DNA of 64,000 nucleotides, taken from the NCBI RefSeq assembly GCF_003148645.1, contig NZ_QGGP01000005.1, forward strand, positions 120,751 to 184,750, given 5' to 3'. The DNA comes from Xanthomarina spongicola. Its GTDB lineage: Bacteria > Bacteroidota > Bacteroidia > Flavobacteriales > Flavobacteriaceae. How positions within the stretch are numbered: position 1 is the stretch's first letter; every line of letters starts with the position of its first letter. Below the pieces are notes generated by a model, which saw nothing but the letters and a program-made list of their open reading frames with translations, was not told where the DNA came from and did not search any database. Below are positions 36,999 through 53,038 of this stretch, in pieces. Both the position numbers and the translations under genes were made by a program.

Positions 36999-37002
36999 CA
37001 AA

Positions 37003-37155
37003 ATGAAGAAAACAGTCTTTAAAACATTAGCAAAATTGAATAAAGCTCTATTACCAAGCTTTACCAAACAGCGTCTGGACCTAAGCAAAGCTAGTAAACT
37101 ACAAATGGCAATTTTTGGTTGGAAATTGTATGTGACTAAAAATGCTTTAGATTAA
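37003..37155 (+). CDS. 50-residue basic conserved-looking small protein
   Basis: A 50-codon frame with ATG at 37003 and TAA at 37153-37155. The product (starts MKKTVFKTLAKLNKALLPSF, ends LYVTKNALD) is basic, with a hydrophobic patch MAIFGWKLYV. It resembles a short flavobacterial family I recall being loosely labelled SsrA-binding protein; it is far too short to be SmpB and I would not use that name. A perfect -7 box just before the ATG suggests a leaderless mRNA. It lies directly upstream of tRNA-Arg. Confidence 0.65.
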   Translation: MKKTVFKTLAKLNKALLPSFTKQRLDLSKASKLQMAIFGWKLYVTKNALD

Positions 37156-37211
37156 TTTGAATATTATTTTGATGATAAACTAAAAAAGGAATATATTTGC
37201 ATCCTTAAAAT

Positions 37212-37285
37212 GGCCTCGTGGCGCAACTGAATAGCGCACTTGATTACGGCTCAAGAGGTTACAGGTTTGAATCCTGTCGAGGTCA
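37212..37285 (+). tRNA. tRNA-Arg(ACG)
   Basis: Acceptor stem GGCCTCG / CGAGGTC (one G-T pair) with discriminator A, the anticodon stem-loop CTTGA-TTACGGC-TCAAG (anticodon ACG) and the T arm ACAGGTTTGAATCCTGT. The D arm is GTGGCGCAACTGAATAGCGC. CCA is not encoded. Confidence 0.96.
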
Positions 37286-37290
37286 CAATA

Positions 37291-37328
37291 AAACCAGTAT
37301 GTTACAACGTTTTTGTAATTGCTGGTTT
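37291..37328 (+). terminator. Terminator after tRNA-Arg
   Basis: AAACCAG / CTGGTTT outer stem with an inner TTACAA / TTGTAA stem, followed by TTTTTATTTT. Confidence 0.75.
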
Positions 37329-37436
37329 TTTTATTTTCAAACTATTTGCAGAAAAATAGAAAGTTTAGATTCTAAGAAATTACTTTATTAAAATTATATA
37401 TTATTTTATATATTATTCACTTCAACTCTTTTATAA

Positions 37437-39557
37437 TTAGCTCTTTTTAAATTTAGACATCATTTTCAGCATTTTTTCGCTTAATGAATATAACCAAAAC
37501 AATTGCTCCCAAACTAAATGTGCTTCCTTATGAGCACGCACATTATCTGTTTGTGAAATGGCATCACTTGTTAGGCGATCTACTGAGAATTTAAGTGTTT
37601 CAGATCTATTTTCAAATTCTAAAGAATTAGAATTAGATTGGGAAACTTCAAAGTCAATAGTCTTTAATTGCATACAAACTGCATCGAGATTATCTTGAAT
37701 TTTTTTTGATATTATTTTAAATTCATTAGAAGCCTCAGAGGTAGTGTGATTTTGAATATAAGCACTCAATGATGCTAAGGATGCTAAAAATCGATGATTA
37801 ATTTCTACCAGTTCGTAAATATCGTTTATATGGTTTTGTTTCGACTTTGGTTCTTGAGCCATACGCTGAAAAGCAGAACTTAAGTTAGACGTTTGTAAAA
37901 AGGCTTCTTTTCTGTTTACTTTTAGACTAGTAGGCACTTTACCTTTTTGTTGGTAATAATTACTTAGAGATTTAAAAAAGGCAGTATTTGCTTTTAAGCT
38001 ATCTTTTATATTATTTCCAATTTCCATAAACGACCAAGCTGGCCACAACCAACGCATTGCTAAATAAGATATTGTTGCACCAATTATTGTATCAATAACT
38101 CTATATTGAATGACCTTTAAGATATCTGGTTGTATAATGGCATAAATAAAAATAACACTCAGCGTAATAAATGTTGCAGATGCTCTATAATTTTTCTGTA
38201 CCATTGAAAACGCAATAACCAAAGACAACACACCTAAAGCACCATAAACATAAGGATGATTTATTAAAAAGACCATTCCACTCGCCACAACTGCACCAAT
38301 GAGTGTACCAACAATACGGTCTTTTGAGCGAGTTTTAGTAAGCCCATAACTAGGTCGCATAATAACAATTACTGTAAGAATTATCCAATATGGATTCTGC
38401 AAATCGAAAAATACACCAATCCCATAACCCAACATTACTGTAACCGCTAATCGTAAAGAATGTTTAAATATTGTGGACCTATAGCTGAGATTTCTAAGTA
38501 TTAATTTTGGATTGTAATCTTGTTCGTCAATAAAACGTCTTAGGTTATCTTGGCTAACAAAATCGTCAGAAGTTAATTCAGGATTACCCAACAACCATTT
38601 AATTCTTTTAATTTTTCCGAATTGTTTTTTCTGGTAATCCAAGAAATTCTGAAGCATTAAATAGCGTTCATAATCTTCGGTATGAAATTCGCTTTTCAAT
38701 TTTAAAATATCTGTTTCAAGCATTTTAAAAATATTAGAAAGCTCCTTGTTGGAAGAAAATTGATTCGCCCTATTTATATTGTTTGCAATAATTCGTAATT
38801 GACTAGACAATTCTGAAATTAATTTTTGAAAACCTGTCTTAAATTCAGGATGTGTTTCAAAAAGCGCATCCATTTTATCGTAATTTACAGGATTTGCAAT
38901 GGCAGTTTCCAATAATTCTACCAACTGGACAAATACTAATAAACGCTTGCCTTGATAATTGGATTTACCTGAAGTTTTCCGGTAAGAAATTAACATCTCG
39001 CGAAAAGTCTCATGGAGTTCAGTTAATTCAGTTTGCAGAGACATTAATTGCTTTTGCAAATCAGCTCTATTAGGTTGTTCGCCTATAAGTTGACGTCTAA
39101 CATCAATAAAATCTGCTGTTTGTAAAAAGATGTCGTATAAAGTTTCTTCTGTTTGTGCTTTAGGGTTGAGATAGAACCATAAAGTAGATAATAGTAAATA
39201 CCACAAACCACCAACACCAATCAATAATGCGTATTGATAGACTTCCAAATCTTCTGAAGTTTGAGCAAAACTCAATACTAAGGCCAATAATCCCGAAAAG
39301 CTAATTAGTGATGCTCTAAATCCGTATATGGAAATAAATGCAATACTAAATGTTAACAAGCCTAAAAGAGGAAATAGAAATACATTTGAAATATGAAAAT
39401 AACCACCAATAAAACTGATAATTACAACTAAAAATGCTGAAAAAAGAATCCCAATTTGTTTATGAATTAAACTGCCATTTACATCACTAGGTGAGCACCA
39501 AAATGCACCAAAACAAATGGCAAGCCCAATATCAAAATGATTGGTTACAATACCCAA
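37437..39557 (-). CDS. FUSC-family (YccS/YhfK-like) inner-membrane protein
   Basis: 706 residues from the first usable start, TTG at 39557. It has two sets of membrane helices (about 10-115 and 365-480) separated by a long helical cytoplasmic domain, and the central FUSC-like block LRLAVTVMLGYGIGVFFDLQNPYWIILTVIVIMRPSYG. Related proteins are thought to be membrane transporters; the substrate is unknown. The frame stays open for 43 more codons to a TAG at 39687-39689 and encodes a good N-terminal extension (KEFLEFLKSTSFSKAVLIG) with no ATG, GTG or TTG. The true start is therefore probably upstream and unusual. The first 80 bp of that extension recur at 50388-50467. Confidence 0.85.
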   Translation of the reverse strand: MGIVTNHFDIGLAICFGAFWCSPSDVNGSLIHKQIGILFSAFLVVIISFIGGYFHISNVFLFPLLGLLTFSIAFISIYGFRASLISFSGLLALVLSFAQTSEDLEVYQYALLIGVGGLWYLLLSTLWFYLNPKAQTEETLYDIFLQTADFIDVRRQLIGEQPNRADLQKQLMSLQTELTELHETFREMLISYRKTSGKSNYQGKRLLVFVQLVELLETAIANPVNYDKMDALFETHPEFKTGFQKLISELSSQLRIIANNINRANQFSSNKELSNIFKMLETDILKLKSEFHTEDYERYLMLQNFLDYQKKQFGKIKRIKWLLGNPELTSDDFVSQDNLRRFIDEQDYNPKLILRNLSYRSTIFKHSLRLAVTVMLGYGIGVFFDLQNPYWIILTVIVIMRPSYGLTKTRSKDRIVGTLIGAVVASGMVFLINHPYVYGALGVLSLVIAFSMVQKNYRASATFITLSVIFIYAIIQPDILKVIQYRVIDTIIGATISYLAMRWLWPAWSFMEIGNNIKDSLKANTAFFKSLSNYYQQKGKVPTSLKVNRKEAFLQTSNLSSAFQRMAQEPKSKQNHINDIYELVEINHRFLASLASLSAYIQNHTTSEASNEFKIISKKIQDNLDAVCMQLKTIDFEVSQSNSNSLEFENRSETLKFSVDRLTSDAISQTDNVRAHKEAHLVWEQLFWLYSLSEKMLKMMSKFKKS

Positions 39558-39577
39558 AACAACTGGTACAGTAATAG

Positions 39578-39657
39578 CAATACCAATTAAAACAGCTTTT
39601 GAAAAACTTGTACTTTTTAAGAATTCTAAAAACTCCTTGGCGTGATTTGTTATGAAA
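39578..39657. repeat. 80-bp direct repeat, copy 1 (5' region of the FUSC gene)
   Basis: Identical over all 80 positions to 50388-50467 in the same orientation. It starts CAATACCAATTAAAACAGCT and ends GTTATGAAA. Weaker similarity continues to the right through the -7 box and a shared 14-bp CAAAGATACAACAT. The copies flank the stress-gene block. Confidence 0.9.
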
Positions 39658-39690
39658 CTTAAAATGAGAGTTGCGTTTATTTTTACCTAC

Positions 39691-39698
39691 CAAAGATA
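39691..39698 (-). promoter_or_regulatory. -7 box for the FUSC gene
   Basis: TATCTTTG on the minus strand. It lies just upstream of the open N-terminal extension and is conserved in repeat copy 2 (50502-50509). Confidence 0.5.
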
Positions 39699-40154
39699 CA
39701 ACATGAATTATAATACTTGTTTTATTATCTAATATAAACTGAAAAATAAAAACTTCTTGTTTTCAACAAAAAAATTGGGTAATAATTACTCGATTGAGTA
39801 ATAATTACCCAACTTGAAATTATTGACATATTTTAAATTACACACTAATAGATTGACTAACACGTGATTATCTTCCATACTAGTGTCTCCTTATGTTTTA
39901 GGCACGCCTTTGGCTATTAGTATAATAATTATATAAGTCAGTTATTAACTGCCATTAGTGATATAAAAAATATGAACTACTAGCTGATTAAAATAATTAA
40001 ATATAAGTACAACATTAAAAAAATATAAGTTCTGTAAATTTTATTACCTTTAAAGTATTCCCACAGAACGAAACCTTATTAACTTAATACTAATTAGCAA
40101 ATTTTATGGCTTTGAGCCATAATAAGCTATTAATAAATGTAAAATAGGAATAAA
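39699..40154. other. Non-coding stretch upstream of the stress-gene block
   Basis: About 450 bp without a credible gene. It holds a perfect 17-bp dyad (39775-39812) and a small hairpin TTATGGCT-ttg-AGCCATAA (40104-40122) that would sit in the leader of the SDR mRNA. No TAnnTTTG box was found before the SDR gene, so its promoter is unidentified. Confidence 0.5.
39775..39812. repeat. Perfect 17-bp inverted repeat with four-base loop
   Basis: TTGGGTAATAATTACTC-gatt-GAGTAATAATTACCCAA. On the minus strand it is followed by a T-run, so it could be a terminator for leftward transcripts, but no leftward gene ends here. It could instead be an operator or a recombination site at the edge of the island. 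Confidence 0.6.
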
Positions 40155-40967
40155 ATGAAAGCACAAAAAAAATTTATAGTAATTACAGGAGGAGCAGGAG
40201 GAATTGGTCAAGCTTGTGCAAGAGTTTTTAAAAACCAACCAATAATTTTAACAGACTATTCGCAACAAAAAGTGGATGAAACTGTAGAAAAATTATCAAA
40301 ACAAGGATTTGATGTTTCTGGATTCGCATGTGATATTACAGATAAAAAAGATATAGAAAAACTTACAAAATTTGTAGCAGAAAAGGGGTCGTTAAAAGCC
40401 TTTATCCATACAGCTGGAGTGAGTGGTACTGTAAAAGACTTGCATAAAGTGTATACCATAGATTTAGTGGCAACAGAACTTTTAGTAGATGCATTTTATA
40501 AACTAGCCGAAAAAGATACTGTTGCTATATTATTATCGTCTATGATGGCACATACAGTGCCTTCAAATAAAGATTATGATGACGCTCTCGTAAATCCGCA
40601 AGCTTTAGGTTCGTTTGAGACTGTGAGTAAATTTGTAAATAAAGATTCGGACCTTATGTACAACTTTGCAAAACGAGGTGTACAATTGCTAACCATTAAA
40701 AATGCCAATAAATGGGGAGAAAAAGGAGCAAGAATTGTATCTGTTTCACCAGGAGTTATTGAAACTCCTATGGCATTAAAAGCTATGGAAGAGCATCCAG
40801 AACGCATGGAGTTGATTAAAAACGCAACACCTTTAAAACGAAATGGACAACCAGAAGACGTAGCACAATTGATACACTTTTTAACAACAGATGCTGCACG
40901 TTTTATAAACAGTACAGATATTTTGGTTGATGGAGGCGTGATACACAATATCAAGAAAATGGGATAA
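40155..40967 (+). CDS. SDR-family NAD(P)-dependent oxidoreductase
   Basis: 270-residue short-chain dehydrogenase. The cofactor motif is TGGAGGIG (about 10-17), followed by the CDITDKKDIE acidic strand, the SSMMAH catalytic Ser region and Tyr169-x3-Lys173 (YNFAK). The SPGVIETPMA and C-terminal FINSTDILVDGG motifs are standard. Substrate is unknown; a sugar, steroid or alcohol is possible. It is the first gene of the forward stress block and is followed after 62 bp by a butanediol dehydrogenase-like gene, suggesting linked redox chemistry. Confidence 0.88.
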   Translation: MKAQKKFIVITGGAGGIGQACARVFKNQPIILTDYSQQKVDETVEKLSKQGFDVSGFACDITDKKDIEKLTKFVAEKGSLKAFIHTAGVSGTVKDLHKVYTIDLVATELLVDAFYKLAEKDTVAILLSSMMAHTVPSNKDYDDALVNPQALGSFETVSKFVNKDSDLMYNFAKRGVQLLTIKNANKWGEKGARIVSVSPGVIETPMALKAMEEHPERMELIKNATPLKRNGQPEDVAQLIHFLTTDAARFINSTDILVDGGVIHNIKKMG

Positions 40968-41029
40968 ATATTTTTTAACAATAAGAGACAAAAAAATTGT
41001 CTGTAACTAAAACTTTAAAATGTAATATT

Positions 41030-42091
41030 ATGGAAACAATGAAGGCGGCTCGCTGGTATGCAGCCAAAGATATTAGAGTTGAGGAGACAAACATTCCTAA
41101 ACCAAATGACAATCAAGTAAAAATAGAAGTAAAATTTGCAGGAATCTGTGGTTCAGATTTACACGAATATAATCATGGTCCACAATTAATTCCTGTTGAT
41201 AAACCATATCCTTTAAATGGACATCAAGGTGTAACCACACTTGGTCACGAATTTTCTGGCGTAGTAGTAGAAACAGGTAAAAATGTCACTAAAATAAAAA
41301 AAGGAGATCGCGTTACCGTTGAGCCTATTTTTAGAAATCCAGAAAGCCCATTCGTACCTAAAGGCGAATATAACCTTTCAGAACCATTAGGCTTTGTAGG
41401 TCTTACTGCAAATGGTGCTTTTGCAAAATATGTGGTTGTAGAAGAATATATGGCACACAAAATGCCAGACAAAATGACTTTTGAGCAAGGTGCTATTGTT
41501 GAACCTGCTGCTGTAGCAGCATACGGAATACAACAAAGTGGAATGAAAATGGGAGATACAGTTTTAATTACTGGAGCTGGACCTATTGGTTTACTTACAC
41601 TTCAAGTAGCTTTAGCTAGTGGTGCTTCGCAAGTTTATATTACAGATATCTCTGAAAGTAGATTAGCAAAAGCAAAAGAAATTGGAGCAACACAAACTTT
41701 TGATGCTAGAGATAAAAACATTCCTGAAAAAATTAAGGAATTAACAAATGTTGGTGTGGATGTATTTATCGATGCTGCAGGAGTGCAAGCCTCTTTTGAT
41801 ACTGGAATAGCAAGCCTTCGTAATGGAGGAACAGCAGTAATAGTAGCGCTTTTTTCAAAAGACATAACACATGATGCTCTAGACCATGCTTTAAGAGAAT
41901 TAACCATAAAGGGTATTATTGGTTATCGTAATATTTTCCCAGAAGTGATTGCATTAATTAATAGTGGAAGATTACCAGTAGAAAAATTAATTACAAATAT
42001 TATATCTTTAGAGGAAATTGTAGAAAACGGGTTTGATGCCTTGATAAAAGATCCATCTGAAGTAAAAATATTAGTAGATATTAGTAAATAA
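41030..42091 (+). CDS. Zinc-dependent alcohol dehydrogenase, (R,R)-butanediol dehydrogenase-like
   Basis: 353-residue medium-chain dehydrogenase. The ATG at 41030 is preferred over an in-frame TTG at 40997. The catalytic zinc site is visible as GICGSDLHEYNHGP and LGHEFSG, with IVEPAAVA further on; the Rossmann loop is TGAGPIGLL. The HEYNHGPQLIP and VEPIFRNP...GEYNLSEPLGFVG segments match bacterial butanediol dehydrogenases. Like the Bacillus enzyme it lacks the four structural-zinc cysteines. It would interconvert acetoin and 2,3-butanediol with NAD(H), though sorbitol-like substrates are possible. Confidence 0.85.
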   Translation: METMKAARWYAAKDIRVEETNIPKPNDNQVKIEVKFAGICGSDLHEYNHGPQLIPVDKPYPLNGHQGVTTLGHEFSGVVVETGKNVTKIKKGDRVTVEPIFRNPESPFVPKGEYNLSEPLGFVGLTANGAFAKYVVVEEYMAHKMPDKMTFEQGAIVEPAAVAAYGIQQSGMKMGDTVLITGAGPIGLLTLQVALASGASQVYITDISESRLAKAKEIGATQTFDARDKNIPEKIKELTNVGVDVFIDAAGVQASFDTGIASLRNGGTAVIVALFSKDITHDALDHALRELTIKGIIGYRNIFPEVIALINSGRLPVEKLITNIISLEEIVENGFDALIKDPSEVKILVDISK

Positions 42092-42123
42092 CAGAATAAT
42101 AAACATTTAAAATTTATATAAAA

Positions 42124-42597
42124 ATGACACAATTAAATTCAATCGGACTTAATGTAAGAAAATCTGAAGTCTTAGCAGAAAAACTAAACGAACTTTTAGC
42201 AGACTATTCTATATTTTATCAAAATGTAAGAGGATACCATTGGAATATTAAAGGAGATAAATTCTTTGAATTACACGATAAATTCCAAGAACTTTATGAA
42301 AATCTATTTATAAAAATTGATGATGTAGCAGAGCGAATTAGAACGCTAGGTCACACACCAAACCACCAGTTTTCGGTATATCAAAAAGAAGCAAAAATTA
42401 AAGAAAGTAACGAAGTGTCAGACGGAGTAAAAGATGTTAAAGACATATTAGAATCGTTAAAAATTATAATTATTCTACAACGTGAAATCCTTGATTTATC
42501 AGCAGATGCAGATGACGAAGGTACAAACGCTTTAATGAGTGATTATATCAGCGAACAAGAAAAATTAGTTTGGATGTACACGGCTTATCTTAAATAA
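42124..42597 (+). CDS. dps: Dps-family DNA-protecting ferritin-like protein
   Basis: 157-residue four-helix protein forming 12-mers that oxidise iron with peroxide and shield DNA. The intersubunit ferroxidase residues are visible: His39 (RGYHWN), His51 (FFELHDKF), Asp66 and Glu70 (DDVAERI). The length is typical. It is followed by hpf and precedes usp, all forward. With the catalase at 44705 it gives complementary peroxide defence. Confidence 0.93.
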   Translation: MTQLNSIGLNVRKSEVLAEKLNELLADYSIFYQNVRGYHWNIKGDKFFELHDKFQELYENLFIKIDDVAERIRTLGHTPNHQFSVYQKEAKIKESNEVSDGVKDVKDILESLKIIIILQREILDLSADADDEGTNALMSDYISEQEKLVWMYTAYLK

Positions 42598-42620
42598 AAA
42601 CTAACTTAAAATTATTAGTT

Positions 42621-42926
42621 ATGGATTACACAGAAAACATTACAGGCATAAAAATTAACGTGCAAGCTGTTGATTTAACTTTGGGTGAAGATGTAAAAGA
42701 TACAATACGCAAAGCTATTTCTCGTCTACACAGATATTATGATAGAATAGAATGGGCAGACGTATATTTTGAAGATAAAGCAGAAAAGAAAACCCAACAA
42801 AAACAAGTAAGTATTCGCCTTGGTGTACCTGGAAAAGACCCATTTGCTTCAGAATATGGAGATAACTTCCATGCGCTATTGGCAAATGTTGAAGAAAAAC
42901 TTCGCAAGCAGTTAGAAAAACTTTAA
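42621..42926 (+). CDS. hpf: Ribosome hibernation promoting factor (short HPF/YfiA family)
   Basis: 101-residue protein of the HPF/RaiA family that binds idle 30S subunits in stationary phase. The beta-alpha-beta pattern is seen with INVQAVDLTLGEDVKDTIRK at the start, YYDRIEWADVYFED in the middle and FHALLANVEEKLRKQLEKL as the last helix. It lacks the long C-terminal dimerisation domain. It sits 23 bp after dps and is followed by a long stem-loop. Confidence 0.87.
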   Translation: MDYTENITGIKINVQAVDLTLGEDVKDTIRKAISRLHRYYDRIEWADVYFEDKAEKKTQQKQVSIRLGVPGKDPFASEYGDNFHALLANVEEKLRKQLEKL

Positions 42927-42939
42927 TATATTATAAAGT

Positions 42940-42991
42940 GATGCTTCATGGTCTACAAATAATTCAATGTTTAGTAGATCATGAAGTCATC
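42940..42991 (+). terminator. Long stem-loop between hpf and usp
   Basis: Arms gatgcTTCATGgTCTAC and GTAGAtCATGAAgtcatc pair with two interruptions around a 17-base loop. There is no strong T-run, so it may be an mRNA-stability or attenuation element rather than a full terminator. Confidence 0.45.
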
Positions 42992-43056
42992 TTAATCATT
43001 TAAAATATTATTAATTAAAAAACAGAACACAATTAAAAATTATTAAAAACAAAACC

Positions 43057-43875
43057 ATGAAAAACATAATCATACCAGTTGATTTTTCACAACAATCAGA
43101 ATTTGCTTTGCAAACAGGTGCTATATTAGCTAAAAAACACAATGCAACCCTACATGTATTGCATATGTTAGAGTTGTCTGATGCTTTAATTTCCATTTCA
43201 AGCAATGAGAGCAAAAATGAAATGTTTTTTATGCTTTCCCTAGCAAAAAAAAGATTCGAAACTTTTTTGGAAAAAGATTATCTGGATGGCGTTAATGTAA
43301 TACCAGTTATAAAAAAGCATAAAGTTTATAAAGAAGTTGATACTGTAGCTAAAGAATTAAATGCAGATTTAATTATTATGGGTTCTCAAGGCATTACGCT
43401 TCAAGATGGCATTTTTGCAGGATCCAATGCAGAAAAAATGGTACGAAACAGTAGCACACCTGTTCTAATTGTTAAAACCGAACCTAAAGGTTTCGACCTC
43501 AACAATGTGGTACTGGCAACAGATATGAGTTTAGAAAGCGTTGAAGCTTATAAGAAAGCTAACCAGTTACTTTCAAAATTAGGAAGTAAAGTTCATCCTG
43601 TATATGTTAACAGACCAAATAATGGTTTCTTAAGTTCCAAAGAGTTCAAAAGAAAAGCAGAAGAATTTAAAATGGTTGGTGGATCGAACAAAGTAGATTT
43701 CATAGCTGGATATACTATTGAAGATGGTGTGATTCAATTTGCAGACGAAACAAACGCTGATGCTTTGGTTGTGTTAACAAATGCCAGAAAAGGTTTAAAT
43801 CATTTAATCAAAGGCAGTATTTCAGAAAATCTCGCAAATCATTCAAAACGTCCAGTTTTGAGTTTTAAACTATAA
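43057..43875 (+). CDS. Universal stress protein, tandem UspA domains
   Basis: 272-residue cytoplasmic protein with two Usp domains. The first (1-145) starts MKNIIIPVDFSQQSEFALQ and carries the ATP-type loop IIMGSQGITLQDGIFAGSNAEKMV with STPVLIVK. The second (about 150-272) is more diverged but ends GLNHLIKGSISENLANHSKRPVL. The double-domain form is common in Bacteroidota. It belongs to the forward stress block and probably acts as a stress-survival signal protein. Confidence 0.9.
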   Translation: MKNIIIPVDFSQQSEFALQTGAILAKKHNATLHVLHMLELSDALISISSNESKNEMFFMLSLAKKRFETFLEKDYLDGVNVIPVIKKHKVYKEVDTVAKELNADLIIMGSQGITLQDGIFAGSNAEKMVRNSSTPVLIVKTEPKGFDLNNVVLATDMSLESVEAYKKANQLLSKLGSKVHPVYVNRPNNGFLSSKEFKRKAEEFKMVGGSNKVDFIAGYTIEDGVIQFADETNADALVVLTNARKGLNHLIKGSISENLANHSKRPVLSFKL

Positions 43876-43921
43876 ACATTGACTGTTAACCTAGTAATAT
43901 AAACCACTAAAACATATAACC

Positions 43922-44563
43922 ATGGAAACATCATTTTTAAAAGCAATTAAAAATACCATAAAGCATTGGTACATTCCTTTATTTGTAGGTGTTTTCTTTG
44001 TTGTTATAAGTATTGTAGTGTTTAGTTCGCCAGAAGGTTCGTTGAGAGCCTTATCGTTGCTATTTGCTTTGTCATTTTTGATAAGTGGAGTTTCAGAAAG
44101 TGTTTTTTCATTTATAAATAAAGACAGGTTAGATAATTGGGGCTGGTCTTTAGCATTTGGTATAATAACTTCAATAGTAGGAGTATTATTATTACTAAAA
44201 CCTAATTTATCCTTAACTGCTTTAGCGTTTTATATTGGCTTTGTAATTTTATTTCGTTCTATTTCAACAATTGGTTTTGCATTAGATGTTAAAAAATACG
44301 GAAGTAAACAATGGAGTGGTCTTTTAATACTTGGTATTATTGGTACAATCGTATCATTCATCCTTATTTGGAATCCGCTTTTTGCTGGATTAAGTATTGT
44401 AGTATTGGTAGCTTTAAACTTCTTGTTTGCTGGACTTTTTAGCATTTTTCTTTCGCTTCAATTCCGAAAATTACATAAGTCATCAAAAAAAATATCAGCA
44501 GATTTAGTAAAACGCTACGATGATCTTATGATAGAAATTCGTAAAGAATGGGATGATGAATAG
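43922..44563 (+). CDS. HdeD-family (DUF308) membrane protein
   Basis: 213-residue inner-membrane protein with six hydrophobic segments in three pairs (WYIPLFVGVFFVVISIVVF, LRALSLLFALSFLISGV, GIITSIVGVLLLLKP and so on). This is the HdeD acid-resistance pattern. A charged C-terminal tail of about 30 residues (KKISADLVKRYDDLMIEIRKEWDDE) follows. It lies between usp and the catalase gene; a role in acid or general envelope stress is inferred from the family. Confidence 0.85.
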   Translation: METSFLKAIKNTIKHWYIPLFVGVFFVVISIVVFSSPEGSLRALSLLFALSFLISGVSESVFSFINKDRLDNWGWSLAFGIITSIVGVLLLLKPNLSLTALAFYIGFVILFRSISTIGFALDVKKYGSKQWSGLLILGIIGTIVSFILIWNPLFAGLSIVVLVALNFLFAGLFSIFLSLQFRKLHKSSKKISADLVKRYDDLMIEIRKEWDDE

Positions 44564-44704
44564 AAGAAAAAAAATGACAATAAGTTAAGTATAAATTAAA
44601 TCAGTACAAATGAAGAATTAAACCTATAGATTAATAACTATTTAATTCAATATATTTTTTTGCTCCAGTATTATTCATATAATTCACTTTAAAACCAATT
44701 AAAA

Positions 44705-46216
44705 ATGAAAGACAAAAAATCAAAACTCACAAGACAAACTGGAGCACCAGTTGGAGATAATCAAAACGTACAAACTGCAGGGCCAAGAGGACCAATGTTA
44801 ATGCAAGATGCTTGGTTTCTTGAAAAAATGGCAAACTTTGACAGAGAGGTTATTCCAGAAAGAAGAATGCATGCAAAAGGCTCAGGTGCTTTCGGAACTT
44901 TTACAGTTACTCACGACATTACTAAATACACAAAAGCCAAATTTTTTAACGAAGTTGGAAAAAAGACTGAAATGTTTAGCCGATTTTCTACTGTTGCTGG
45001 AGAAAGAGGTGCTGCTGATGCCGAAAGAGATATTAGAGGTTTCGCATTAAAATTTTATACCGAAGAAGGTATTTGGGATTTGGTAGGAAATAACACACCA
45101 GTATTTTTCTTTCGAGACCCAATGAAATTTCCAGACTTAAATCGTGCTGTAAAACGCGACCCTAAAACCAATTTAAGAAGTGCCAATAACAACTGGGATT
45201 TTTGGACCTTGCTTCCTGAATCACTACATCAGGTTACCATAACCATGAGTGATCGTGGTATACCAAAAGGATATAGACACATGCACGGTTTTGGAAGCCA
45301 TACCTTTAGTTTTATCAATAAAGACAACGTTAGGCATTGGGTAAAGTTTCATTTTGTGTCGCAACAAGGTATTAAAAACTTGTCTGATGAAGAAGCTATG
45401 AAAATAGTTGGAATGGACAGAGAATCATCTCAAAGAGATCTTTTTGATGCCATTGAAGGAAAAGATTTCCCTAAATGGAAAATGTTTGTTCAGGTAATGA
45501 CAGAAGATGAAGCAAAAACATATCGTTTTCATCCTTTCGATTTAACCAAAGTGTGGTCTAAAAAAGATTTTCCACTTATTCCTGTTGGCGAATTTGAACT
45601 GAACAGAAATCCAGAAAACTATTTTCAAGATGTAGAACAAGCTGCTTTTAATCCGTTAAATGTAGTGCCTGGTATTGGCTTTTCACCAGATAAAATGCTA
45701 CAAGGACGTTTGTTTTCTTATGGTGATGCGCAACGCTATAGATTGGGCGTAAATCATTATCAAATTCCTGTAAACAAACCAACTTGTCCTTATCATTCAA
45801 ATCATAGAGATGGAACCATGCGTGTCGACGGAAATCATGGAGGCACCTTACATTACGAGCCAAATAGTTATGGTGAATGGCAAGAACAACCAGATGCAAA
45901 AGAACCACCTTTAGAGTTAGATGGTAGTGCTTATGCTCACAATTTTAGGGATGATGATGAAGATTACTTCACACAACCAGGAGACTTGTTCCGCATTATT
46001 AAAGCCGATGGTAAAGCAGATGTATTATTTAAAAATACAGCAGCACAAGTAGGTGGAGCAGAGAAATTTATTCAGATCCGCCATATTAGAAACTGTTTTA
46101 AAGCAGATCCAGAATATGGACAAGGTGTGGCAAAAGCACTAGGTTTAACGATGGATGAAGTTAATAATTTCGATATGACACCTTTTGATAAATGGGCACC
46201 AAGACCAAGTAATTGA
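44705..46216 (+). CDS. katA: Heme catalase (small-subunit, clade 3 type)
   Basis: 503-residue monofunctional catalase breaking hydrogen peroxide into water and oxygen. The catalytic His56 is in [12 protein letters not shown], Asn129 in [11 protein letters not shown], and the proximal heme ligand Tyr339 in [14 protein letters not shown]. The length matches small-subunit catalases. No signal peptide, so it is cytoplasmic. It is in the forward stress block with dps. A 141-bp gap precedes it, but no TAnnTTTG box was found there. Confidence 0.96.
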
Positions 46217-46279
46217 TGGGATAAGAAATTTATATAGAATTTGTAATGGATTTTATCACAAAAATTAAATTTTATAAAC

Positions 46280-46663
46280 ATGAAAAATTCAGCAAAAAAG
46301 GTAGTAGAGAATATGTTCGCTGCATTTAGCAGTGGCGATGCAGATAAATTTGTAGCATCAGTTTCAGACGATACTGTTTGGATTTATCATGGCACACAAA
46401 TTATCCCAAAAGGAAAGTTTGAAAAAAAAGAAGGTGTAAGAGCTTTTTATAATAATATTATGGAAAGAACTGAAATCATCAACTTTGAACCACTACAATA
46501 TATCGTTGAAGGTAATATGGTTGTAGTCTTAGGACGTGAACATCAAAAAATAAAACGATCTGGAAGAGAATTGAAACAAGATTGGGTTCAAATCTATACA
46601 GTTGAAAATGATTTAATTAAAAAAATGGAGGAATTTGCAAGTTCAGAAGAAGTAACGCAATAA
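46280..46663 (+). CDS. NTF2-like (SnoaL/ketosteroid isomerase fold) protein
   Basis: 127-residue protein with the NTF2-like layout: an N-terminal helix VVENMFAAFSSGDADKFVAS, then DDTVWIYHGTQ, a short helix around GVRAFYNNIM, and a strand-rich C half (VVVLGREHQKIKRSGRELKQDWVQIYTVEND). Catalytic or binding activity cannot be told. It follows the catalase gene by 63 bp in the stress block. Confidence 0.82.
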   Translation: MKNSAKKVVENMFAAFSSGDADKFVASVSDDTVWIYHGTQIIPKGKFEKKEGVRAFYNNIMERTEIINFEPLQYIVEGNMVVVLGREHQKIKRSGRELKQDWVQIYTVENDLIKKMEEFASSEEVTQ

Positions 46664-46674
46664 AATTAGGGAAT

Positions 46675-47601
46675 ATGAAGAATGAAACAACAAATAATAA
46701 TCCGCTTTTATGCGATATAGAAACAGGAATGTGTGAAACTACAGATGAAGCAACAAATATTGCATCTCAAAGTTTAGAACAATCCACAGAGAAATCAGTA
46801 AAACTCATATATTATACAGACCCTATTTGCTCATCGTGTTGGGGAATTGAACCACAATTACGAAAATTGAAACTAGAATATGGCAATGTTGTTGAGATAG
46901 AATATAGAATGGGAGGTTTATTACCAGATTGGAGTTACAATAGTGGTGGGATTGGCAAACCTTCGGACGTGGCTTCTCATTGGGACGAAGTGAGTTTACA
47001 TTACGATATGCCAATTGATGGAGATCTTTGGTTAGAAGATCCTTTAGACTCTTCGTATCCACCATCTATTGCGTTTAAAGCTGCTCAAATTCAAGATGAA
47101 GAAAAAGCTCTTTTGTTTATGCGAGAAATAAGAGAATTAGTGTTCTTAAAAAAGAAAAATATCGCAAAGTGGGAACATTTAGCAACTGCAGCAAAAACTG
47201 TTGGACTAAATGTCGAACAATTAAAAACCGATTTTGAAGATAAAGCAAAGGCATTGTTTCAAGACGATTTAAAATTAGGAAGAGAGCTTGGAGTAAGAGG
47301 GTTTCCAACGATTTTCTTTATTGACAATTCTGGAAATAAAGAAATAGTATATGGTACAAGGCCTTATGCATTTTATGAAATGGCAATTCTAAAACTGAAT
47401 CCTAATGCTACAAAAAGTGAATACAGTAAAAATTGGGAAATACTCTTCTCAAAATATAATTCGCTCACAGCTAAAGAGTATTCTGAACTCTCTGGAACAC
47501 CAAGAAATGAAAGTGAAACTATTTTGAATGAACTTTCAAAAAATGGTAAATTGCAAATACTAACCACAAAAAACGGTTCTATTTGGACGATTAAAAAATA
47601 A
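46675..47601 (+). CDS. DsbA-family (SpxH/FrnE-like) protein with winged-helix-like C terminus
   Basis: 308-residue cytoplasmic thioredoxin-fold protein without a signal peptide. An N-terminal tail of about 40 residues precedes the active site DPICSSCWGIEPQ (CxxC), a pattern shared with SpxH/YjbH ClpXP adaptors and FrnE. The cis-Pro loop is RGFPTIFFID. The last 50 residues (TAKEYSELSGTPRNESETIL ... IWTIKK) look like a winged-helix DNA-binding fold. This pairing could couple redox state to proteolysis or transcription. It starts 11 bp after the NTF2-like gene. Confidence 0.8.
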   Translation: MKNETTNNNPLLCDIETGMCETTDEATNIASQSLEQSTEKSVKLIYYTDPICSSCWGIEPQLRKLKLEYGNVVEIEYRMGGLLPDWSYNSGGIGKPSDVASHWDEVSLHYDMPIDGDLWLEDPLDSSYPPSIAFKAAQIQDEEKALLFMREIRELVFLKKKNIAKWEHLATAAKTVGLNVEQLKTDFEDKAKALFQDDLKLGRELGVRGFPTIFFIDNSGNKEIVYGTRPYAFYEMAILKLNPNATKSEYSKNWEILFSKYNSLTAKEYSELSGTPRNESETILNELSKNGKLQILTTKNGSIWTIKK

Positions 47602-47621
47602 TCAATTAAAACTTTTATACA

Positions 47622-47930
47622 ATGGGAAAATATACAAGCTTATCTGAAGCCATAAACGACCTCACAAAAAAAGGTTACACCTATAATTTTAATATGAAAG
47701 AAGAGTTCATAGAATGTGCTGAACAAAATTGTCAATTACAACCAGACGAGTTTAATATAGATGAAAAACATCGTTTTCAAGAAATGTCAGATGTCGACAA
47801 TGAAAGTGTTTTATACGCCATTTCATCAAAAGATGGAAAAATAAAAGGGTTATTAGTAAATGCTTACGGAATTTATGCAGATTATGCATCCTTTAAACTA
47901 GTTCAAAAATTAAACAGACCAGAACGATAA
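47622..47930 (+). CDS. Conserved small protein of unknown function
   Basis: 102-residue cytoplasmic protein: SLSEAINDLTKKGYTYNFN, then LQPDEFNIDEKHRFQEMSD and YAISSKDGKIKGLLVNAYGIYAD. I recall similar short Bacteroidota proteins carrying the label phosphoribosylpyrophosphate synthetase, but it is far too small and shows no PRPP or ATP motif, so I give no enzyme name. Two Cys in ECAEQNCQ. It sits 20 bp after the DsbA-like gene and 7 bp before the pirin gene, so it is in the same operon. Confidence 0.78.
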   Translation: MGKYTSLSEAINDLTKKGYTYNFNMKEEFIECAEQNCQLQPDEFNIDEKHRFQEMSDVDNESVLYAISSKDGKIKGLLVNAYGIYADYASFKLVQKLNRPER

Positions 47931-47937
47931 TATTATT

Positions 47938-48822
47938 ATGTCTAACATCAAACTTATCATAGAAGAAAGAGCTGCCAATATTGGAAAATTTATGGTAGGT
48001 AGATTATTACCGTTTCGTCAAAAGCGAATGGTTGGTCCTTTTATTTACATAGACCACATGGGACCTGTTAAATTAAATGAGCGTCAAAATTTTGATGTAT
48101 TACCACATCCTCATATAGGCTTATCAACCCTTACATTTTTATTTGAAGGTAGCATTATGCATCGTGACACGTTGGGTAATGAAATAGAAATAAAACCTGG
48201 AGCTGTTAACTGGATGACAGCAGGAAAAGGCATTGTACATTCTGAACGAACACCAGAATATTTGCGAGACTCGCCCTTATATATGCATGGTTTACAAATT
48301 TGGGTAGCATTGCCAAAATATTTGGAACAAATGGATCCGCAATTTTCTCATATTGAAGAAAAAGATATTCCTAGTTGGGAAGAAGGAGACTTACAATTCA
48401 AATTAGTTGCTGGCGAAGCATTTGGTAAAAAATCACCAGTTCCTGTTTTTAGCAAACTATTTATGCTTGAAATAAAAAGCAAAACAAAACAAGTTGTAAA
48501 TATTGGCAACGAACTTTATGGTGAAGCTGGTTTGTATATTCTTAATGGTGCCATTGAAAGCGAAGGCAATATTTATGAACCAAAACAATTATTAGTGGCA
48601 AAAGACAGCTCACTTTGTGAGTTTACCATTCAGGAAAATAGCACCATTTATATTTTTGGAGGCGAACCTTTTCCTGAAGAACGTTTTATCGATTGGAATT
48701 TTGTGTCTTCAGATAAAGAGTTAATTGGCCAAGCCAAACAAAAATGGAAAGACCAAGCATTCGATAAAATAAAAGGAGACGAAACTGAGTATATCCCTTA
48801 TCCAACTTTCAACAGAAAGTAA
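47938..48822 (+). CDS. Pirin family protein
   Basis: 294-residue bicupin. The N-terminal cupin shows the pirin metal-site pattern DVLPHPHIGLSTLTFLFEG and MHRDTLGNEIEIKPGAVNWMTAGKGIVHSE, which supplies three His and one Glu. The C-terminal cupin is shorter and ends with IFGGEPFPEERFIDWNFVSS. Pirins act as quercetinases or redox-sensitive regulators; the role here is unknown. Last close-packed gene of the stress block before nhaA. Confidence 0.92.
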   Translation: MSNIKLIIEERAANIGKFMVGRLLPFRQKRMVGPFIYIDHMGPVKLNERQNFDVLPHPHIGLSTLTFLFEGSIMHRDTLGNEIEIKPGAVNWMTAGKGIVHSERTPEYLRDSPLYMHGLQIWVALPKYLEQMDPQFSHIEEKDIPSWEEGDLQFKLVAGEAFGKKSPVPVFSKLFMLEIKSKTKQVVNIGNELYGEAGLYILNGAIESEGNIYEPKQLLVAKDSSLCEFTIQENSTIYIFGGEPFPEERFIDWNFVSSDKELIGQAKQKWKDQAFDKIKGDETEYIPYPTFNRK

Positions 48823-49033
48823 AACAAGCATATTTGCGTATTGAATTAATAAATAGACCAGTAGCACATAATAAATATGCTATTCTTGAAGAGGTTACAT
48901 TTAAACTTATCAAAGTTATTCGTTTATTAATAAAACAGGTTAGTTTATTATCATCATTTTTGTAATATTGATTTAAATTTGAGCTTTAGACCTTTTATTT
49001 AAAAACAAACTTATGCTAAACTAACTAACTTAG

Positions 49034-50347
49034 ATGATAAAAAAAGTATTCCTCACACCTTTTCAGAAATTCGTAAAAATTCAAAGCCTTAGTGGTATCT
49101 TGTTGCTGCTAACTACAATTATTGCTTTAGTTTGGGCAAATTCATCATTTGGTAATATATATAGAGAACTTTGGCAGTATGATATTGGCATTGTAACCGA
49201 TAGCTTCGAATTTAAAAAACCTTTAATTCTATGGATTAATGATGGATTAATGGCAGTTTTCTTTTTTCTTATAGGTTTAGAAATTAAAAGAGAGTTGATG
49301 ATTGGCGAACTCAATTCCATGAAAAAAATTGCCTTTCCATTAGTTGGTGCATTAGGAGGCATGTTGGTTCCTGTGGTATTATTTTTAGTCTTGAATCAAA
49401 ATCCTGAAACGACAAAAGGTTGGGGAATTCCTATGGCGACTGATATTGCCTTTTCCTTGGCCGTTTTAAATGTATTAGGAAAACGTGTACCATTGAGCCT
49501 CAAAATATTTTTAACAGCTTTTGCAATTGTAGATGATATTGGCGCAGTATTGGTAATCGCTTTATTTTATAGTGGAACTATTAATATTAGTATGTTATTT
49601 ATTGCTATATGTATGCTTGCTGTATTATACTTATTTTCTTTTAAAGGCTTTTACTCAAAATATGTGTTTTTCTTTTTTGGGACAGTTATTTGGTTTTTAT
49701 TCTTAAATTCTGGAATTCATCCAACTGTGGCTGGTATTCTAATGGCATTTTCTGTTCCAATTAGACAAAAAATTGATACAACAACATTTTTAGAACAACT
49801 AGAAAATGTCTATAAGGATATTAAGAATACTAGTATTCTTCAAAAACCAATTTTATCTAAAGAGCAAATTATACTTGTTGACGATTTAGAAGACTGGGCT
49901 TCCCAATTCCAGTCGCCTTTACAGAGGTTAGAACATGATCTACATGGCTGGGTTGCTTATTTTATTATTCCAATATTTGCACTCGCAAATGCTGGAGTAC
50001 TGATTGATAGCTCAGCGTATTTAGACACTGCTTTAGTAACCAATATTATAATTTGTTTAGTATTGGGCAAAGGCATCGGAATTACATCAATTGTTTTGCT
50101 AGCAAAAAAAATAAAACTGATAGCTATTCCAAGCGATATAGGTGTCAAACAAATTATAGGTGTTTCTTTTTTAGCAGGAATTGGTTTTACTATGGCAATT
50201 TTTATTGCGAGTTTAGCTTTTGCATCTACACCAGAATTTATAGATTCAGCTAAAATAGGCATCCTTATTGGGTCTTTTATTTCTGCAATAATTGGTTATT
50301 TGATTTTGAGGATTAGTTCAAATAAAACTGAGAGTTTTAACGATTAA
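49034..50347 (+). CDS. nhaA: Na+/H+ antiporter NhaA
   Basis: 437-residue inner-membrane antiporter exchanging sodium for two protons, important at alkaline pH. FLIGLEIKREL, PMATDIAFSLAVL and the catalytic double Asp in AIVDDIGAVLVIALFYS are visible, as is the C-terminal LAGIGFTMAIFIASLAF. Its length is slightly above E. coli NhaA because of a cytoplasmic loop near 250-300 (ENVYKDIKNTSILQK). It is the last gene inside the repeat-flanked block; the stop is 40 bp before repeat copy 2. Convergent with the leftward promoter of that repeat. Confidence 0.94.
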   Translation: MIKKVFLTPFQKFVKIQSLSGILLLLTTIIALVWANSSFGNIYRELWQYDIGIVTDSFEFKKPLILWINDGLMAVFFFLIGLEIKRELMIGELNSMKKIAFPLVGALGGMLVPVVLFLVLNQNPETTKGWGIPMATDIAFSLAVLNVLGKRVPLSLKIFLTAFAIVDDIGAVLVIALFYSGTINISMLFIAICMLAVLYLFSFKGFYSKYVFFFFGTVIWFLFLNSGIHPTVAGILMAFSVPIRQKIDTTTFLEQLENVYKDIKNTSILQKPILSKEQIILVDDLEDWASQFQSPLQRLEHDLHGWVAYFIIPIFALANAGVLIDSSAYLDTALVTNIIICLVLGKGIGITSIVLLAKKIKLIAIPSDIGVKQIIGVSFLAGIGFTMAIFIASLAFASTPEFIDSAKIGILIGSFISAIIGYLILRISSNKTESFND

Positions 50348-50387
50348 AAAATAAAAGCTGGTAAGATTACATTTTTCTTAAATTTAA

Positions 50388-50467
50388 CAATACCAATTAA
50401 AACAGCTTTTGAAAAACTTGTACTTTTTAAGAATTCTAAAAACTCCTTGGCGTGATTTGTTATGAAA
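50388..50467. repeat. 80-bp direct repeat, copy 2 (orphan FUSC 5' fragment)
   Basis: Identical to 39578-39657. Here the FUSC reading frame runs on the minus strand for about 25 family-like codons and then diverges into 14 unrelated codons and a TAA within nhaA's downstream region. It is a stranded piece of the FUSC 5' end, complete with a -7 box. Confidence 0.9.
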
Positions 50468-50501
50468 TTTGAAATAAGATTTATTTTTTTAATAGTTGAT
50501 T

Positions 50502-50509
50502 CAAAGATA
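50502..50509 (-). promoter_or_regulatory. Orphan leftward -7 box of repeat copy 2
   Basis: TATCTTTG on the minus strand, part of a 14-bp stretch shared with the FUSC promoter. Transcription from it would cover the 80-bp fragment and run antisense into the nhaA 3' end. Confidence 0.4.
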
Positions 50510-50586
50510 CAACATCATTAACGAAGCTTATTTATTATTTGGAGCACAATCAAAAAGTGTTTTTAAACAGTAAACATATTAAGAAA

Positions 50587-50621
50587 AAACCCTGTCTTCA
50601 ATGGCACTTGAAACAGGGTTT
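50587..50621 (-). terminator. Terminator after the 35-residue basic peptide gene
   Basis: AAACCCTGT / ACAGGGTTT stem with a 17-base loop; on the minus strand it is followed by TTTTCTT. Confidence 0.65.
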
Positions 50622-50669
50622 TAACATTAAACATAACTAAATTAAACAATTACTTAAAGCACAAATATT

Positions 50670-50777
50670 TTATCTGCGTTTTCTAGTTTGTTTTGCTTCT
50701 AATTTCATTAAAATCTTTTCTTGTCTTTTTTCTTTCAAATCAACTTTAGGAGCTTTTAAATTTTTATTTCTTGCCAT
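50670..50777 (-). CDS. 35-residue highly basic peptide
   Basis: ATG at 50775-50777, TAA at 50670-50672. The product starts MARNKNLKAPKVDLKEKRQE and ends QTRKRR, with 15 Lys/Arg residues. It is followed by a good terminator on the same strand, which supports an expressed unit. No family is recognised; a nucleic-acid- or ribosome-binding peptide is possible. It lies just outside the repeat-flanked block. Confidence 0.5.
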   Translation of the reverse strand: MARNKNLKAPKVDLKEKRQEKILMKLEAKQTRKRR

Positions 50778-51368
50778 GATTTCTAAATTTTAATTGTGAA
50801 TTATTAGTATTTATCATAACTACAATCCTAAGTAATTTGCTAAAACTTTTAATTACGAGATACCATCAACTGCAATACAATAGAAAAATTGAAATGGTGA
50901 ATTTTAGCGGATTGTTTTAAGCACACTCGTCGTGCTTATAAAGTCGGGAAGATAATTTTCAACTTAAGAGTATTTATCCTTGTTTGTACTGGTACATAAA
51001 CATGAAAATAAGTTGCTTTCAACAAAAAATTGATATGTGTAAACTTACTAAACATTACAAGTATATAAACTTTTAATAACTAGACAAATATAGGCCTTAT
51101 TATTGATCTTTTCAAGTTAAATAATTCTTAAAATCAGGCTTTTATTTTTCTTTGAAGGTTATAAAAACTTAGAAGTGGTTATTCAATATATATTTGTCAA
51201 ATTAGACCATTTTAATGTAGATATTGACACTTAATCTAACACCCAAAATATATCTGAAGTTTACAAACAGTCTCAATTATATATTGCCAAAATTTATTAT
51301 TTATTAGGTGCCAAACTATTTACAATTCGGTATATTTATATAAAAAATATAGATAGAGAATTATTAAT
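50778..51368. other. Non-coding stretch before mscS
   Basis: About 590 bp with no credible gene. The only clear structure is a hairpin TAAGCAC-actcgtc-GTGCTTA at 50918-50938. No -7 box was found near the mscS start. Confidence 0.5.
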
Positions 51369-52457
51369 ATGATTGAATTTTTAGAAATACACAAACAAGA
51401 TATAGTATACAGTATAATTGTAATTGCTTTGATATTCGCATTACGAAGTTTAACTAATAGATTGCATAAATGGCTGGTAAAAGAAAAGAATAGAAAATTT
51501 CCAAACGAGCCACCAAGAGCATCTAATATGTTAAAACGAATTTTAAATACACTATGGTTTGTTTTAGGTATTATTGCTTTAAGTTATCTTTTTGTAGAAA
51601 AGCAAAACAAAGGTGTTATAATAGACAACTTTAAATCTGTTCTTTACATAGGCATAGTTTTAGCAATAACCATTATTGTTGCAACATCTGCTAATTTGTG
51701 GTTCAGGATCGATATCCAAAAAAAGATTGAAAACCAACATGATCCAACAAGCTTTAAGTTTTTAAGATATGTAGTATTGGTTAGTATTTATTTTATAGGA
51801 ATTCTTTTATGTCTCTTAGCTTTTCCATCGTTAAAAGGTGTTGCACATACTGCTTTAGGTGGAGCTGGAGTAATTACACTTATAGTTGGTATTTCTTCGC
51901 AAGAAGCACTATCTAATATAGTAGGAGGTTTGTTTATTATATCCTTCAAACCTTTTAAAATTGGAGATCGTGTAAAAGTAACAGATACTATGGTAGGTAC
52001 AGTAACAGATATTACGTTACGGCATACAGTTATTAGAAATTTTGAGAATAAGATGATTGTAATCCCTAACTCTATTATTAATAAAGAAAAGTTGATTAAT
52101 TATGATTTAGGTGAGTTAAAATGTTGTGAGCGTATAGAGATAGGAATCTCATACGATAGTGATATTGATTTAGCAAAAAAAATCATGCAAGAAGAATGTG
52201 AAAATCACCCGCTAATTTTAGATAATCGTACAGAATTAGAAATACAGGAAGGGAAACCAATAGTTAAAACTGCTTTGATACAACTAAATGAATCTTCAAT
52301 AACCATACGAGCTTGGACTTGGGGAAGAGACTATAACGATAGTTTTCAACTAAAAATTGATGTATTAGAAAGTATTAAAAAACGATTTGATAAAGAAGGT
52401 ATTGAAATCCCATTTCCTTATAGAAACATTGTCATGAAATCCCAAAATGTAAAATAG
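51369..52457 (+). CDS. MscS-family mechanosensitive channel
   Basis: 362-residue membrane channel releasing solutes on osmotic downshift. It has about four N-terminal membrane segments, then the pore helix and beta-domain signature GGAGVITLIVGISSQEALSNIVGGLFIISFKPFKIGDRVKV split over residues about 165-205. TLRHTVIRNFENKMIVIPNS and a C-terminal alpha/beta domain ending FDKEGIEIPFPYRN follow. It stands alone after a long non-coding stretch. Confidence 0.92.
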   Translation: MIEFLEIHKQDIVYSIIVIALIFALRSLTNRLHKWLVKEKNRKFPNEPPRASNMLKRILNTLWFVLGIIALSYLFVEKQNKGVIIDNFKSVLYIGIVLAITIIVATSANLWFRIDIQKKIENQHDPTSFKFLRYVVLVSIYFIGILLCLLAFPSLKGVAHTALGGAGVITLIVGISSQEALSNIVGGLFIISFKPFKIGDRVKVTDTMVGTVTDITLRHTVIRNFENKMIVIPNSIINKEKLINYDLGELKCCERIEIGISYDSDIDLAKKIMQEECENHPLILDNRTELEIQEGKPIVKTALIQLNESSITIRAWTWGRDYNDSFQLKIDVLESIKKRFDKEGIEIPFPYRNIVMKSQNVK

Positions 52458-52714
52458 AAATCTCAACTTGTTTATAAATGGATGTTAAATTCTTAATTGG
52501 TAATAATTAACAACTAGTTAAACACTTATTTAAGACTCTAGTGATTATATATTACCTAGTCGAAGTCATTAAACATTATACACTTCAAGAAATTTAAAAT
52601 CGTTTTTTCTCTTATGACTGATAAAAATCATAGGATATTAATTTTGGATTTTAGATATTTATAATGCTATTAATCGAAGAGACAATCTAAACAGGTTGGT
52701 TTCTTAAAAAAGGA

Positions 52715-52740
52715 AAGCATCTACTACTTAGTAGGTGCTT
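52715..52740. terminator. Bidirectional terminator between mscS and clpS
   Basis: AAGCATCTAC / GTAGGTGCTT (one G-T pair) with a six-base loop. T8 follows on the plus strand and an A/T-rich tail on the minus strand, 5 bp from the clpS stop. Confidence 0.75.
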
Positions 52741-52744
52741 TTTT

Positions 52745-53020
52745 TTATACAATTTCTGCACTCAAACCTGCTTCTAAGAGCATGGAACATCTTGGTTCCA
52801 GCTCGTCGTAAACTCCCGTTTTAACAGTACATTTACCTTTATAATGAACAATAATAGAACATTGTTCTGCCTGTTCTGGTGTGTGCTCGCAAGCAAAAAC
52901 AAGTGTATTTATAACATGATCGAACGTATTTACATCATCGTTATACAATACAATTTCATTAAGATTTTGCTCTTTTGTTTCAACTTCTATTTGTTCTTGT
53001 ATTTTTTCTTTAGTACTCAT
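52745..53020 (-). CDS. clpS: ATP-dependent Clp protease adaptor ClpS
   Basis: 91-residue adaptor delivering N-degron substrates to the Clp protease. The core LYNDDVNTFDHVI (N-degron pocket Asn-Asp-Asp) is intact, and TGVYDELEPRCSMLLEAGLSAEIV closes the domain. It is the last gene of a minus-strand run after prmA (18-bp gap) and tpiA. Confidence 0.94.
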   Translation of the reverse strand: MSTKEKIQEQIEVETKEQNLNEIVLYNDDVNTFDHVINTLVFACEHTPEQAEQCSIIVHYKGKCTVKTGVYDELEPRCSMLLEAGLSAEIV

Positions 53021-53038
53021 TTTTAAAACTTTACTCTA

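Follow-up and report, generated by a model that had tools for sequence, protein, structure and literature searches.

In the genome of Xanthomarina spongicola, two identical copies of the 5' end of one membrane-protein gene (FUSC) stand on either side of a row of twelve genes, and the locus raises the question of how the second copy came to lie there. We analyzed a 64-kb stretch of DNA containing it (hereafter, the window) and examined the same interval in the seven other members of a set of eight Xanthomarina genomes, designated G001-G007 (G001, Flavobacteriaceae bacterium LYZ1037; G002, X. gelatinilytica AK20; G003, Xanthomarina sp. F2636L; G005, Xanthomarina sp. F1114). An earlier note on this DNA had proposed either an element that integrates into the 5' end of FUSC and rebuilds it, or duplication/recombination. 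The reading preferred here is that the 80-bp repeat is probably a recombination scar inside a mosaic, tRNA-linked island of stress genes. The features of the locus are the following.

37212-37286, plus strand: tRNA-Arg(ACG), intact, bounding the variable interval on the left (ARAGORN; Rfam RF00005)
37437-39665, minus strand: gene for a FUSC/YccS-type membrane protein (Pfam FUSC-like, FUSC_2, FUSC; start by comparison)
39578-39657, minus strand: repeat copy 1, approximately codons 4-30 of FUSC
39691-39698, minus strand: promoter-like box TAnnTTTG of copy 1, TATCTTTG (from the sequence)
40155-48822, plus strand: eleven genes, for SDR, ADH, Dps, HPF, USP, HdeD-like protein (DUF308), catalase, SnoaL-like protein, DsbA-like protein, a 102-aa protein and pirin (Pfam; the 102-aa protein without a Pfam match)
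49034-50347, plus strand: the twelfth gene, Na+/H+ antiporter NhaA (Pfam, NCBIfam)
50388-50467, minus strand: repeat copy 2, orphan FUSC 5' fragment (sequence comparison)
ATT at 50475-50473 to a stop ending at 50344, minus strand: frame of copy 2, a putative ORF of 43 aa
50502-50509, minus strand: promoter-like box TAnnTTTG of copy 2 (aligned with related FUSC leaders)
50670-50959, minus strand: small ORF of 35 aa with its upstream region (elsewhere on the chromosome in G001-G004)
51369-52457, plus strand: gene for an MscS-type channel (Pfam; adjoins clpS also in G002 and G005)
about 52523-52572, plus strand: decayed 3' part of a tRNA-Arg, right edge of the interval (collinear alignment with the tRNA-clpS stretch of G007)
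52745-53020, minus strand: clpS, conserved right neighbour (synteny comparison)

Two copies of a FUSC 5' end

Comparison of positions 39578-39657 and 50388-50467 confirmed that they are identical at 80 of 80 bases in direct orientation. Within the window, no exact direct repeat is longer than this pair, the runner-up has 20 bp, and a search for exact inverted repeats of at least 20 bp found none. At 95% identity, the match covers 98 bp, and another motif, CAAAGATACAACAT, is common to both copies farther upstream of the 80-bp repeat. The Pfam matches of the minus-strand gene bear out the earlier assignment of copy 1 to the FUSC 5' region. The description of copy 2 as an orphan fragment also holds: it encodes query residues 1-27 at 96% and then diverges from FUSC, and the stop of its frame at 50344 overlaps the final four bases of nhaA. 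When the FUSC 5' region was used as a query against the whole X. spongicola genome, it had these two matches, and a third FUSC 5' end was not seen. The repeat is unlikely to be an assembly error, because the flanks of the two copies differ and both copies lie within one 203-kb contig.

For comparison, we examined 53 other FUSC loci, 22 of which belong to a Winogradskyella-like clade and were aligned with both copies. The leaders of copies 1 and 2 are identical at 18 of 34 positions (~53%), and leader identity in the 231 pairs of the 22 related loci has a median of 0.59 (range 0.24-1.0). In the coding part, the two copies agree at 80/80 positions, whereas in the same 231 pairs the median is 0.76 and no pair exceeds 0.96. 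Because the leaders have diverged as between species and the 80 coding bases are identical, we conclude that both copies are genuine FUSC 5' ends of different sources, their identical part having been made by recombination or conversion.

The likeness of the two copies to G001 is split, which speaks against a simple story. The region upstream of copy 1 matches the FUSC-SDR intergenic region of G001 at either end, with 80.7% over 88 at the promoter of FUSC and 76.5% over 81 towards SDR; the region upstream of copy 2 matches the G001 FUSC leader (76.7% over 90), as well as many Winogradskyella leaders. Thus, copy 1 is the closer one around the promoter and copy 2 is the closer one at codons 2-3, which in copy 2 (TCA AAT) are those of G001 and in copy 1 differ. 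In the FUSC tree (30 of the 53 loci, the window and G004), the window and G001 group with Olleya, Psychroserpens, and Winogradskyella, apart from four further FUSC proteins of Xanthomarina. The tree is consistent with transfer or differential loss and gives no date for the repeat.

A comparable second copy of the FUSC 5' end was absent from all 53 other loci within up to 10 kb on each side; the sole match had 35 bp at 83% (matches covering less than 40% of the query were dropped in the neighbour search, and short fragments were sought separately). NhaA is divergent to FUSC within a few kb in 12 of the 53 loci (L083-L087, L089, L091, L095, L096, L098, L099, and L130), and so it is in the window, with the block between them. 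A glutamate synthase-like gene of 529 aa or near, its family assigned through the G001 homologue, directly precedes FUSC in eight of the nine loci with listed ORFs, the exception being L088.

The start of FUSC was placed by comparison at an ATT codon (39665-39663, minus strand). Among the 23 rows of the clade (the window, L081-L100, L122, and L130; rows L003-L007 were not counted), the conserved FUSC N-terminus starts at ATT in 22, window included, and at ATC in one (L094). In 19 of these rows, the stretch from the upstream in-frame stop to residue 18 is free of ATG, GTG, and TTG, and L086, L090, L097, and L122 have such a codon farther upstream. FUSC rows of other clades mostly have TTG or GTG about 6-7 codons ahead of the aligned start. 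Genes that start with ATT are known, for example, infC of E. coli, and FUSC of the Winogradskyella-like clade appears to be another case. Such a conserved ATT start in a transporter family, possible as it is, is missed by searches restricted to ATG, GTG, and TTG.

An exact TAnnTTTG, which we take to be the -7 box of Bacteroidota, is found upstream in 16 of 23 rows of the Winogradskyella-like FUSC clade, window included. The promoter-like box of the copy 2 stub is intact and would point antisense into nhaA. Farther upstream of FUSC, a 44-bp stretch (39772-39815) is self-complementary at 86% and single in the X. spongicola genome. It has a counterpart upstream of FUSC in the Psychroserpens locus L088 (about 9850-9905; 82% over 56 bp), and is a possible operator.

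The interval between tRNA-Arg and clpS

The variable unit of this locus extends from tRNA-Arg (37212-37286) to clpS (52745), covers about 15.2 kb, and includes FUSC, whose ORF ends at 37437, so that the tRNA lies directly beside the island. We define the island as this whole stretch; its cargo comprises FUSC, the stress block, NhaA, and MscS. The tRNA-Arg adjoins endoI likewise in all seven relatives. An empty site, endoI - tRNA-Arg - clpS with no gene between the tRNA and clpS, was found in two of them, G007 and G006, the latter on a 1.8-kb piece with partial clpS and endoI from a genome that is 75% complete. The interval is filled in the other five, with clearly differing gene sets in G001, G002, and G004 and overlapping sets in G003 and G005:

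G001: DUF488, Omp85-like, and glutamate synthase-like genes
G002: DUF488, SDR, USP, HdeD-like, catalase, SnoaL-like, DsbA-like, 102-aa protein, pirin, and MscS
G003: DUF488, DUF2141, HdeD-like, another SDR, FMO, EamA, MscS, and glutamate synthase-like
G004: pyridoxal-dependent decarboxylase, a gene without a Pfam match, Omp85-like, MscS, two further genes, and glutamate synthase-like
G005: DUF488, HdeD-like, SDR, apparently the FMO and EamA of G003, MscS, and three further genes

FUSC occurs in this interval in none of the seven genomes, and no FUSC match was found anywhere in G007 or in the 75% complete G006. G002 has a related SDR-to-pirin block in place and lacks ADH, Dps, HPF, NhaA, and FUSC there. 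These observations do not support the proposed integration of an element at the 5' end of FUSC, since FUSC itself is variable cargo and the empty site consists of tRNA-Arg and clpS without FUSC.

In G001, a series of FUSC, baeRF-like, SDR, USP, HdeD-like, catalase, SnoaL-like, DsbA-like, 102-aa protein, pirin, and NhaA genes lies, in this order, about 150 kb from clpS, and the block genes shared with the window have the same order. The ADH, Dps, and HPF genes of the window are found together in G005 on a separate contig. Because G001 keeps the block far from clpS and G005 has these three genes together elsewhere, the cargo of the island is modular. No sign of a recent foreign origin of the block was observed: its G+C (0.329) is inside the range of the left flank, and its identities to G001/G002 (catalase 95/96, pirin 90/95, USP 86/94) are at about the level of core genes. 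An unrooted tree of 8 core proteins from 10 genomes (without G006, and with fewer columns for G002) placed the window and G007 together against the rest with 100% support, and the mean core identities to the window, calculated over differing column numbers, are 0.891 for G007 and 0.889 for G002. Thus, one near relative is empty (G007) and another is filled with a similar block (G002).

All twelve genes between the copies are in forward orientation, as the earlier note had stated; its description of all of them as stress-related goes slightly too far. A stress role fits Dps, HPF, USP, the HdeD-like protein, catalase, the DsbA-like protein, pirin, and NhaA, and is not clear for SDR, ADH, the SnoaL-like protein, and the 102-aa protein. 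The Pfam scan of 15 window proteins agreed with the note in revealing no integrase or transposase among them, and the PHROGs matches of nine window proteins were limited to general enzymes and USP. We therefore refer to a tRNA-linked variable locus and not to an active integrative element, as no integrase was found among the 15 scanned proteins.

An intact tRNA at one side of an insert and a tRNA 3' part at the other are a mark of insertion at a tRNA gene. A collinear alignment (72.6% over 208 columns) pairs the window segment 52523-52723 with a stretch of G007 running from inside tRNA-Arg towards clpS. The score of the tRNA remnant, 27, was reached by 4 of 2000 base shuffles, and among 836 scores from other window segments a single one exceeded it, that of a real tRNA-Val site. 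This score alone is not decisive, since the shuffles reached up to 33, and it is the collinear alignment that carries the assignment of a tRNA remnant. The decayed copy is visible only through alignment with the empty site. Together, the intact left tRNA and the decayed right 3' part give the picture expected of an insertion that took place at this tRNA long ago. An exact att repeat of the tRNA was also sought: there is no same-strand exact 12-base match between 37321 and 60000, and one match lies on the other strand at 57905. The remnant was not seen at the interval in G001, G002, G003, G004, and G005, and G003 retains part of the clpS-side stretch beside MscS. Beside clpS, the noncoding stretch 52617-52744 is 72-78% conserved in G003, G006, and G007; it has a terminator-like hairpin and perhaps holds something besides it.

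Between NhaA and MscS, the segment 50670-50777 (minus strand) encodes a 35-aa small ORF rich in Lys/Arg. The ORF was observed in 4 of 120 sampled family genomes (its own, G139 at 80%, G002 at 83%, and G020 at 71%), and its counterparts in G001-G004 have 80-86% identity and a different chromosomal place, near a putative Rrf2-type regulator. The whole unit of about 290 bp (50670-50959) has a single occurrence in the X. spongicola genome, here. As a unit with another location in G001-G004, it suggests that the NhaA-MscS junction took up further small pieces. The Rfam scan of 36900-53100 gave two matches up to E 0.1, of which the tRNA alone passes its cut-off; the other, FuFi-1 at 50517-50622, was taken as chance (score 25.5 versus a cut-off of 59.6).

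How the repeat may have arisen

If the repeat is a recombination scar, the incoming DNA would have carried a FUSC 5' end together with the SDR block and NhaA, as ordered in G001, and would have encountered another FUSC 5' end already resident upstream of MscS. Two routes can be envisaged: (i) after its FUSC end was trimmed to about 80 bp, a molecule would circularize and integrate through one crossover, so that the whole FUSC came to lie at the left and a stub retaining the old promoter at the right, or (ii) two FUSC copies would flank the block, gene conversion would equalize them, and the right copy would later be shortened. The exact route of recombination or conversion is one that we infer, and the second, conversion and then truncation, would fit as well as the first. 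A site-specific recombinase acting on FUSC would not be required.

As in a single crossover, the insert is flanked by a partial direct copy of the homologous gene, and the flanks of the two copies are from two diverged sources, as is evident from their leaders. Against a plain crossover, diverged alleles would not yield 80 identical bp without conversion or gap repair. The earlier note had suggested searching for a relative whose FUSC gene runs on directly into the sequence to the right of 50467; neither this nor the presumed arrangement before the event, FUSC upstream of MscS, was found among the candidates scored in 60 relatives or the fetched loci. In the passages of PMC3240628 on E. coli conjugation used here, 60 clones were tested for one-sided illegitimate integration and 56 of them instead yielded a PCR product diagnostic of partial duplication, 14 sequenced clones had duplications of 109-950 bp of the homologous locus, and the explanation given is a trimmed, recircularized molecule integrating via one crossover. 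For Vibrio, the corresponding passages of PMC5361080 propose that one-sided homologous insertion leaves orphan genes. By analogy, the layout observed here would be that of a trimmed-circle crossover product with an 80-bp stub.

A site-specific element that integrated in the FUSC 5' end, brought a replacement 5' end, and left the old one at its far side would produce the same layout, with the whole FUSC and one leader at the left and the stub and the other leader at the right, and codons 2-3 of copy 1 are unlike those of copy 2, as in a rebuilt 5' end. However, no recombinase is present among the proteins scanned, the 53 other FUSC loci have no comparable second copy, FUSC is outside the interval in 7/7 relatives, G002 carries its related block at the same place without FUSC, and 80 bp is long for an att core. 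On synteny and the absence of second copies elsewhere, FUSC was rejected as the integration target, and we consider such an element very unlikely. Had the FUSC 5' region undergone a simple tandem duplication recently, followed by loss of the remainder, this would account for a coding part that is identical and in the same orientation; however, a recent simple copy would bring its leader along, whereas identity drops sharply from 100% to about 53% in the adjoining leaders, unless one leader was replaced separately. Of the second proposal of the note, simple recent duplication was thus rejected on leader divergence and has a low probability, and recombination is retained, given the diverged leaders beside the identical 80 bp.

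Capture of fragments during the joining of broken ends is rather unlikely as well. In this view, filler between NhaA and MscS would have come first from the FUSC 5' end and next from the 35-aa ORF unit, in agreement with the placement of this unit elsewhere in G001-G004 and only here in X. spongicola, and with the composition of 50348-51368, which has a G+C of 0.242 and no long ORF. On the other hand, no third FUSC 5' end was seen in the genome, so the leader of copy 2 would need foreign DNA or a lost gene.

The recombination scar in a mosaic island thus remains the preferred reading. A far more speculative extension of it, to which we give very little credence, is that the 80-bp copies stay identical as a working handle: the ten-kb SDR-to-NhaA block would leave and return as a circle, switching FUSC between two promoters and making stress tolerance present/absent or dose-variable without a recombinase of its own, with the stub promoter firing antisense into nhaA.

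Relation to known systems

The kind of locus is ordinary, a mosaic tRNA-linked hotspot plus a scar. It resembles genomic islands at tRNA genes in several features: (i) an intact tRNA at one edge and a tRNA 3' remnant at the other, (ii) empty sites, and (iii) differing cargo. It differs from them in that no integrase was found, the right remnant is strongly decayed, and the cargo is metabolic as well as stress-related. The transmissible locus of stress tolerance of Proteobacteria comprises an Hsp20/ClpK/FtsH core, an HdeD-type protein, and a cation/proton antiporter. The likeness lies in a stress block with the latter two components that is present or absent among relatives; the locus described here has no Hsp20/ClpK/FtsH core, belongs to another phylum, and has no known tolerance phenotype.

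With the interval so delimited, the puzzling repeat becomes a readable history, in which a tRNA-linked hotspot of marine Flavobacteriaceae gathers differing sets of stress genes and one exchange has left a scar. Lying next to direct repeats does not in itself make a gene the target of an element; the supposed target, FUSC, is cargo here.

Closest to the scar itself are trimmed-circle single crossover and homology-facilitated illegitimate recombination, where, in the passages of PMC3240628 and PMC5361080 on these processes, the insert is likewise flanked by a partial direct duplication. Unlike in those systems, the event is inferred here from one genome, and the leaders of diverged alleles would require conversion or gap repair in addition. 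The orphan FUSC fragment is comparable with the Vibrio type VI clusters, for which the same passages of PMC5361080 propose that orphan immunity genes are genes left behind.
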